Of a stretch of 45,805 nt of DNA, positions 10,059-11,774 are shown piece after piece. Under the pieces are notes generated by a model, which saw only the letters and a program-made list of their open reading frames with translations, was not told the origin of the DNA and did no database searches. How positions within the stretch are numbered: position 1 is the stretch's first letter; the number at the start of each line of letters is the position of its first letter. Origin of the DNA: a virus; IMG/VR virus record IMGVR_UViG_3300030098_005518, positions 1 through 45,805 of that record; one strand, written 5' to 3'. Made by a program: the position numbers and the translations under genes.

Positions 10059-11774
10059 TCAATATGAAATGGTGCATTTATGGCTCCAAGCTGCCCTTTT
10101 AGGGGTACATGCGCCATCGTAAATGTACCCCCCATTCATCCCCCCGCCTGGGGGAATGCACCCATCGCAGTTAGTGTTCGGATTGCTAGTAATGTTATTT
10201 GGAATACACCCAGTCATGCCTTTAGATGTATTTGGCCCTTCGTCAACAGTAGTGCTAAATTCCCATTTATTAAATTTGCTATCAATAATTCTGCACCACT
10301 CTTCAACGGCAAGTGCTTCAATCTCTCCATTGATGGGCAAATTATTTCTTTGTAGCTCAACTCCCACTGCGTCAGATAATCCCTCATTAAGAGGAAGTTT
10401 TAAAGCAGGGTGACCCATTCCGCACCCCTCAACCATCTTGACGGCGTCTGTATAGCTTATTCCGGTATTTTCTTCTATTGCTGCTGCCTCATTTAAGACC
10501 CCCGTAATTGCTCCTCCTGCGCATGGGTGTGGGCCGTAAACTTCAGTGGTATTGCCAAAAGTTAATGTTTCAAACCCATATCCAGGATCAGGAGTAAATG
10601 AAACATTGGCCCATATTTTCCCATAACTACATCCAGTTACTGGCTCAAAACCAACACTTGCTCGCCATGTCCCCGACACTTGTCTTGAGGTTTCGCTTCC
10701 GCAAGAATAGCTATCCCCACAACCGGGCGTAGGGGAGCCACCCCAAGAGCATTGGGTTGAAGGGCAATTGCCTACAAGCGCTGTTCCTGCATTGCAAATG
10801 TGTCCAAATTTTAATAGTGGCGCTGGGCATCGACCCCGAATTTCGTGCCTGCCTGTTTGGGGGTCACATGGAATATCTATTGAAACTTCAAAATCATATC
10901 CCTCATGATTTACCCCGTAAGCAGACATGCCCCGCGAACAGCACAGCCCCGTTGGCGGACACGATTGATAAGGCCCCAGCCATCCATTATTAAAGTAGTT
11001 AGTGAAAATCCGATTTGATGGAGGAGTGCAACAGGTTGTGTTTGCCATATCGCAATTTGGCACCGCTGTTTGTGGGGCTATATCAAATACGCCTGAACCA
11101 GAGGTTTGAGGTACGTATGTGGTCGAGCAGGTATCAGAATCAGCGCAAAGTTGCATATTTGCCCACATGGCTTGATTTTGACACACTAAATCAGTAGCAG
11201 GCGCACCCCCTAAAGGGTTAGCGTATGTAACTTTGCCGAAACACTCAAAAAAAGAGTCTTCGCAATTGCTTGCAATTGTGCTACTAGGAGGGCAGCAGCT
11301 ATTACCTAATGAAATGTAACTGCCCGAAACATTTACAGAAAGACTAATAGGGGCTTTTGGGATTTCCGGGCAACAAGTTTGCAAGCCCCATTCACAAGGG
11401 CCACCCCCGCCGCCGCCATCTTCGTCGCAACACTCTTCACATGAAAGTATTTCAGGAAGAAATGAGGCAAAAGGGATCGCATCTTTTTCACACCCACAAG
11501 GGTTTTCTTGATCTTGGCAGTCCCCTCCACAGCATTCAAGTTTCCAACAACTACAAGCACCATCACCAATTTTAAATTCAGTAGGGCCGTCTAAACAAGG
11601 ACAGTTCTCATCAACAGTGCCGGAGCAACAAACACAAACTTTAACCCCTTCTCCGCAATTATTGCCTGCTTCTTCTTCGCAATCACAAGGAACTAGCATG
11701 GCGCAACTGCAAAATTGATCATACTCAATGCAATTACATTCAGTGGTGCAATGTTGTGGCCAAAAAAAAGACAT
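10059..11774 (-). CDS. Extremely cysteine-rich virion-module protein (571 aa)
   Basis: I count about 55 cysteines, some 26 of them in the first 145 residues, many as CC, CxC and CxxC (for example VCVCCSG, LECCGGDC, CEECCDEDGGGGGGPC). The later part (150-571) has spaced cysteines, many N-x-S/T sites, Gly/Pro/Thr, and beta-like stretches such as GTWRASVGFEPVTGCSYG. No signal peptide or membrane segment is visible. It starts at ATG 11774 and lies in a tail-type module among structural genes. Such density suggests either extensive disulfides formed outside the cell, or metal binding. Most dsDNA phage virion proteins are Cys-poor, so this is odd. I recognise no family. A host-surface adhesin or tail fibre is possible, but this is inference. 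Confidence 0.75.
   Translation of the reverse strand: MSFFWPQHCTTECNCIEYDQFCSCAMLVPCDCEEEAGNNCGEGVKVCVCCSGTVDENCPCLDGPTEFKIGDGACSCWKLECCGGDCQDQENPCGCEKDAIPFASFLPEILSCEECCDEDGGGGGGPCEWGLQTCCPEIPKAPISLSVNVSGSYISLGNSCCPPSSTIASNCEDSFFECFGKVTYANPLGGAPATDLVCQNQAMWANMQLCADSDTCSTTYVPQTSGSGVFDIAPQTAVPNCDMANTTCCTPPSNRIFTNYFNNGWLGPYQSCPPTGLCCSRGMSAYGVNHEGYDFEVSIDIPCDPQTGRHEIRGRCPAPLLKFGHICNAGTALVGNCPSTQCSWGGSPTPGCGDSYSCGSETSRQVSGTWRASVGFEPVTGCSYGKIWANVSFTPDPGYGFETLTFGNTTEVYGPHPCAGGAITGVLNEAAAIEENTGISYTDAVKMVEGCGMGHPALKLPLNEGLSDAVGVELQRNNLPINGEIEALAVEEWCRIIDSKFNKWEFSTTVDEGPNTSKGMTGCIPNNITSNPNTNCDGCIPPGGGMNGGYIYDGACTPKRAAWSHKCTISY

Follow-up and report, generated by a model that had tools for sequence, protein, structure and literature searches.

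A cysteine-rich, probable tail-tip protein with 55 cysteines and its variable counterparts in uncultured tailed phages

Introduction

The virus record IMGVR_UViG_3300030098_005518 of IMG/VR (45,805 bases, analysed over its whole length and called the window here) encodes a protein of 571 residues with 55 cysteines, and the reading to which we give slightly better than even chances is that of a fast-evolving, disulfide-stapled tail-tip protein, likely receptor-binding, of a Planctomycetota phage, its place in the virion being taken from gene order. Tail parts of phages are normally poor in cysteine, in keeping with their folding in a reducing cytoplasm. The family that fills the corresponding gene position (the slot) is new, being absent from the family libraries used, while receptor-binding tail proteins as such are of an already known kind.

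Several known systems may be set beside it. In the contractile Agrobacterium phage Milano all the receptor-binding proteins form disulfides with the tail, and the structural proteins contain on average 2.1% Cys (PMC10811340). The lambda gpL and RcGTA hub proteins are Fe-S tail-tip proteins of a conserved family, with four Cys per single cluster (PMC10721106, PMC7296036). The YTV-domain cell-wall proteins of Planctomycetales are Cys-rich, and the YTV genes were reported only in this order (PMC8567305).

The phage genome and the 55-cysteine gene

The window ends overlap by 599 bases with 97% identity and 19 mismatches (1-599 against 45,207-45,805), and it therefore probably represents a nearly complete or complete genome, terminally redundant or circularly assembled. 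If the ends meet, the minus-strand open reading frames 1-4371 (open) and 43,137-45,680 would be joined in a single giant gene, free of Cys, of about 2,150 aa. The features of the genome are collected in Table 1. The Cys-rich gene is placed between the adaptor and the giant structural genes, and no tape measure was recognised in the window phage. The non-structural genome part encodes, at 27,864-28,784, a GP88-family protein (PF17338, E 9e-35; PHROG 1617) of unknown function.

Table 1. Features of the window (45,805 bases) bearing on the Cys-rich gene
Feature	Coordinates	Strand	Remarks
Large terminase	36155..37870	+	Query that found the clade of uncultured relatives
SU10-type portal protein (PF23899)	37871..39673	+	
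Major head protein (PHROG 9953)	40942..41997	+	
SU10-type head-tail adaptor (PF24175)	14699..15814	-	Minus-strand virion module
W5, probable distal-tail protein	12484..13377	-	297 aa, 1 Cys; order at the Planctomycetota homologue: tape-measure-like gene, W5, W6
W6, upstream neighbour	11801..12460	-	219 aa, 10 Cys (4.6%); candidate anchor of the Cys-rich protein
Cys-rich slot protein	10059..11774	-	571 aa, 55 Cys
W8, downstream small Cys-motif protein	9692..10048	-	118 aa, 8 Cys; PHROG 32048
W9, small conserved cassette protein	9391..9726	-	111 aa
W10, conserved structural-module protein	7971..9389	-	472 aa; relatives in Planctomycetota phage-like loci

The first-pass annotation had described a protein of 571 residues with nearly 10% Cys, and the reading frame is exactly this: it starts with ATG, runs on the minus strand without in-frame stops and has 9.6% Cys. 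Over the genes of the window Cys averages 1.54%, the large structural genes of the module having zero or nearly zero, and 55 or more Cys among 571 residues at the window rate has a binomial P of about 2e-26. Judged by the homologue that a second contig carries in this slot and by the conserved Cys, the frame is a real gene. A compositional or annotation artefact, that is, a frameshifted or non-coding frame, for which nothing but the odd composition would speak, is refuted by the homologues in independent contigs, the conserved Cys and neighbours and the uninterrupted frame, and its probability is negligible.

The Cys of the protein are spaced as CC (seven times), CxC (seven), CxxC (three) and CxxxC (three), and such spacings are, over the family, what the Cys content alone gives. 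The N-terminal part of about 135 aa holds 26 Cys, with the cluster CTTECNC at residues 9-15; in the body of about 435 aa the conserved Cys are widely spaced. Cys, Gly, Ser, Pro and Thr are high and Lys is low, a composition like that of extracellular proteins, which would suit a late secreted or lysis-associated effector acting on the oxidising cell envelope and encoded among tail genes by chance. However, inspection of the N-terminal sequences by eye reveals neither a signal peptide nor a transmembrane segment, and the gene always stands among virion-module genes, adjoining W6 with its invariant Cys; such a non-virion protein is therefore regarded as very improbable. The sequences also do not have the signal peptide of about 15-25 residues that precedes the lipobox Cys of a lipoprotein, the CCC of the family sitting about 4-11 residues after Met.

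The search of the full records behind 36 terminase-related contigs with the 55-Cys protein gave one clear relative at 35% identity; this protein (L113/G001; 33-35% identity), which occupies the corresponding slot of its contig, has 48 Cys and a CCC start. When four relatives were aligned, about 30 invariant columns were Cys. Neither the protein nor its 41 relatives (42 members) had a meaningful match in Pfam, PHROGs or NCBIfam, the sole PHROG matches being weak and to unnamed PHROGs, and PDB profiles gave no match to the 55-Cys protein. The first-pass annotation had named homology to a zinc or disulfide family that acts outside the virion as the finding that would overturn its proposal; no such homology was seen by Pfam, PHROG, NCBIfam or PDB profiles. 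The YTV motif is absent from the protein, and no YTV match was obtained in NCBIfam or Pfam, its relatives included. Among 50,697 phage records searched by tblastn with the 55-Cys protein, its flanks, W5, W10 and six concatenated CCC proteins, only W8 gave significant matches, and the 55-Cys protein had no relative in isolate phages. The AlphaFold model of the protein, from an alignment of four sequences, has a mean pLDDT of 31.5 and is unusable for the fold or for Cys pairing.

The same slot in uncultured relatives

By the terminase search 112 viral contigs were recognised as relatives, with no isolate phage close by, and an adaptor search located the virion module in at least 19 contigs. The common order, with some gains and losses among the contigs, is the adaptor, small genes, W5, W6, the Cys-rich gene, W8, W9, W10 and the giant Cys-free genes. 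The region was available in 16 contigs with this type of module, the window included, and in every one of them the slot after W6 is filled with a Cys-rich protein (279-755 aa, 4.5-9.9% Cys), usually unalignable with the others; the more distant contigs L129 and L130 have a different, Cys-poor module.

For a test not selected on the feature itself, viral contigs were searched with profiles of W10 (69 loci) and W8 (394 loci, 80 kept), every W10 locus with at least 1.5 kb upstream was taken, and a protein with at least 10 Cys and at least 4% Cys was counted as Cys-rich. Upstream of the W10 homologues 36 of the 46 non-redundant slot proteins were Cys-rich, and these 36 fell into 25 families unrelated by BLAST. 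As many as 28 slot proteins carry CCC within the first 60 aa, mostly 6-11 residues after Met, against an expectation by shuffling of 0.73 and a maximum of 5 in 2000 shuffles; all loci together gave 41 CCC proteins at 70% clustering. Among the exceptions are the window protein and the families nearest to it, starting with CTTECNC, CxxxC or CC. Across their range the slot proteins have 4-11% Cys, about 10 to 70 Cys each, with irregular spacing. Their bodies are mostly unalignable even by hhalign, the neighbouring genes remaining alignable, as expected of receptor-binding genes. The idea of one domain common to all the slot proteins was rejected, hhalign joining only a few short families. The Cys content that the first-pass annotation called very unusual is so among cultured phages, but commonplace in the large uncultured group described here.

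The neighbours W6 and W8

The 37 homologues of W6 have a mean column identity of 15%, and only Met1 and one Cys near the C-terminus (Cys213, within TCARC in the window phage) are invariant in them. The AlphaFold model of W6 (pLDDT 75.7) has an N-terminal helix of 32 residues followed by a beta domain, whose last strand ends with the invariant Cys; it had no match in the PDB, and in BFVD it matched one uncultured phage protein (E 6e-4, low TM-score). W6 has a single C-terminal Cys where the next protein starts with CCC, and a CxxC in the group of the window, whose Cys-rich proteins are without CCC; L113/L156, with both CCC and CxxC, is the exception. This tracking suggests that the W6 cysteine site and the N-terminal cysteines of the slot protein may meet, although shared descent could give the same pattern.

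W8 carries the motif GLGDxIAKxTxxxGIKPCxxCxxRxxxLN and belongs to a very common, independent phage family (PHROG 32048) that is not homologous to the 55-Cys protein. In the group of the window W8 comes directly after the Cys-rich gene; in the Nonlabens phages P12024S and P12024L a family member stands just before the terminase, and 42 of the 80 loci, some of them incomplete, have the W8 family without any Cys-rich neighbour. A longer W8 starting at 10135 would overlap the 55-Cys gene; since the start of the closest homologue corresponds to position 10048, the longer form is probably not made. The three-gene Cys cluster pointed out in the first-pass annotation does recur in other phages, and both flanking genes do contain Cys (10 in 219 aa and 8 in 118 aa), but the description of the flanks mixed a probable partner, W6, with the separate family of W8.

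Cysteine chemistry

When the proteins are aligned without the Cys bonus, no residue type is better conserved than Cys, and 73-100% of the Cys are kept in sequence pairs of more than 50% identity; the preferential conservation of Cys that would mark a Milano-like system is thus found here. The bodies of 45 proteins contain 80 CxxC against 86 +/- 9 after shuffling, so that the enrichment typical of zinc ribbons or zinc knuckles is not seen. Even Cys totals occur in 18 of the 45 proteins, with no excess of even numbers. The conservation of Cys together with the unenriched CxxC favours disulfides over zinc knuckles without proving them.

The metal-binding cysteines proposed in the first-pass annotation are weakened by the same counts and by the irregular spacing. 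A metal-binding tail-tip protein would fold in the cytoplasm with its Cys holding zinc, iron or Fe-S, the metal serving the structure or docking to a metal-uptake receptor, and metal sites would account for the folding of 55 Cys in a reducing cytoplasm. Fe-S clusters in the tail tip are established for lambda gpL and the RcGTA hub (PMC10721106, PMC7296036), and in prophage members of the family (L396, L398) a unit of about 75 aa recurs that contains four Cys, two of them as a CxxC. However, CxxC is as frequent in the bodies as after shuffling, no profile matched any Fe-S or zinc family, and the irregularly spaced Cys, up to about 70 per protein, are unlike the known clusters. The metal-binding reading is held to be unlikely.

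Like gpL and the RcGTA hub, the slot proteins would have conserved Cys in a tail-tip protein encoded downstream of a tape measure; unlike gpL, they have about 10-70 irregular Cys, hypervariable bodies and no profile match. The four relatives have about 30 invariant Cys columns in place of four conserved Cys at one site, and no similarity of gpL type was detected with PHROG, Pfam and PDB profiles.

Tail-tip position in Planctomycetota loci

One Planctomycetota class was searched with the W6 profile, and 18 of 382 genomes gave a match; a Cys-rich gene adjoins W6 in about 11 of the 16 regions fetched, and several of these genes have a CCC or CC-rich start. The W6 and Cys-rich pair is present in a chromosomal contig of 4.29 Mb, the source of locus L396, which comes from a sample of one Planctomycetota class; it stands there within the order major tail protein (PHROG 1407, 3e-14), tape measure (PHROG 9483, 4e-41), a gene of 262 aa, W6 and a 631-aa protein with 39 Cys and repeats of about 75 aa. 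In L405 a W5 homologue has W6 on one side and, on the other, a tape-measure-like gene free of Cys. Judged by this gene order, the pair downstream of the tape measure is in the tail-tip position, and for the window phage, with no recognised tape measure, the term tail tip is transferred from the prophage loci. The membership of the gene in the virion or tail module of a tailed phage, as claimed in the first-pass annotation, is borne out by this synteny with prophage loci carrying tape-measure and major-tail genes, where the gene adjoins distal-tail genes.

The tail-tip Cys-rich proteins at L398:1785-4568 and L396:9328-11220 consist of a unit of about 75 aa, repeated 6-9 times in tandem, in which four Cys are conserved, two of them as CxxC (C...WV..LP....F...G.CY.(I/V)DP....P..A....Y.DC..C), and which belongs to no Pfam family. 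Such repeats were rejected as the building units of the window protein, the repeat profile having matched only L396/L398 and the overlapping L381/L383. Directly after the Cys-rich gene of L396 a DUF6734 protein is encoded (L396:11208-12440; Pfam E 2e-60), with an extra Cys-containing C-terminal stretch.

The protein could also be a structural stabiliser that does not bind the host, such as a disulfide-stapled plug, collar or whisker hardening the particle in harsh environments. Disulfides do stabilise the Milano tail (PMC10811340), and a slot that is always filled with unconserved sequence would be tolerable for a purely mechanical role. However, bodies of very high diversity behind a conserved N-terminus, at a conserved position, are what receptor-binding genes usually show, and the slot of the prophage locus comes after the tape-measure gene; the purely mechanical role is considered improbable.

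Host

The window phage is probably an uncultured tailed phage infecting Planctomycetota. The nearest terminases in named genome assemblies are those of Planctomycetota, the virion module of these assemblies being, where readable, different and Cys-poor. Relatives of W10 were found in 13-15 of 392 Planctomycetota genomes and in none of 388 Verrucomicrobiota genomes; W5 had no match in the 392 Planctomycetota genomes. Four short W10 matches in 349 Pseudomonadota, to one stretch of about 64 residues, were put down to chance in view of the weak match of this stretch to YfbR structures. No Cys-rich gene accompanies the W10 matches in Planctomycetota, which belong to a different phage-like locus, and their support for the host is therefore indirect. 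This locus (L358-L370) has the same order in about 10 Planctomycetota genomes, once inside a 1.08-Mb contig: the major head protein (PHROG 1328), a gene of 220 aa, the W10 relative and genes of about 375 and about 1,200 aa; it could be a domesticated prophage or an element like a gene-transfer agent.

Discussion

On the preferred reading, the tail-tip protein would be made in the late module together with W6, which would sit at the tail tip and present its C-terminal cysteine. The N-terminal Cys cluster (CCC in most, CTTECNC here) would join the Cys-rich protein to W6, the attachment being made through intermolecular disulfides or a shared metal site. The Cys would stay thiols during assembly in the reducing cytoplasm, and disulfides would form after lysis, stapling a protein whose variable, Cys-scaffolded body, the fastest-changing part of the cassette, would contact the host surface.

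Like Milano, the window phage is a tailed phage, and the interchain disulfides by which Milano ties its receptor-binding proteins to the tail are here proposed. Unlike Milano, whose disulfides are formed by ordinary tail proteins, it would use one dedicated protein of a family with 4-11% Cys and without tail-protein homology, and, unlike the contractile Milano, it has SU10-type portal and adaptor genes. The YTV proteins offer a likeness as Cys-rich surface proteins of the probable host phylum; they differ in being cell-wall proteins of the host, and there is no family match to the 55-Cys protein.

The first-pass annotation had considered a new adhesin class, which fits the conserved position, the N-terminal Cys cluster, the hypervariable body and the absence of a known family, but the binding itself is only inferred. 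As expected of an adhesin, a conserved putative attachment end (CCC in 28 of 36) is combined with hypervariable bodies (25 families). In the fullest form of this idea, which we advance tentatively and hold to be less probable than not by a wide measure, unrelated Cys-scaffolded bodies would be plugged onto a common tail tip of Planctomycetota phages through CCC reacting with the W6 cysteine, as a modular, covalent and redox-dependent adhesin finished after lysis. If this is true, the covalent coupling possibly serves the engagement of a cystine-rich host envelope, and a redox match between the phage and the Cys-rich surface of Planctomycetes is conceivable, although the Cys-rich cell-wall proteins do not count as evidence of one.

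Thus, a large uncultured group of phages devotes a whole virion-module gene to proteins of such Cys content, with unrelated bodies and a common CCC start. In phages without annotated host-recognition genes, candidates could be sought by this sequence signature; the group would also give probable access to the phages of Planctomycetota and allow a direct test of the idea that oxidation after lysis completes phage tails.
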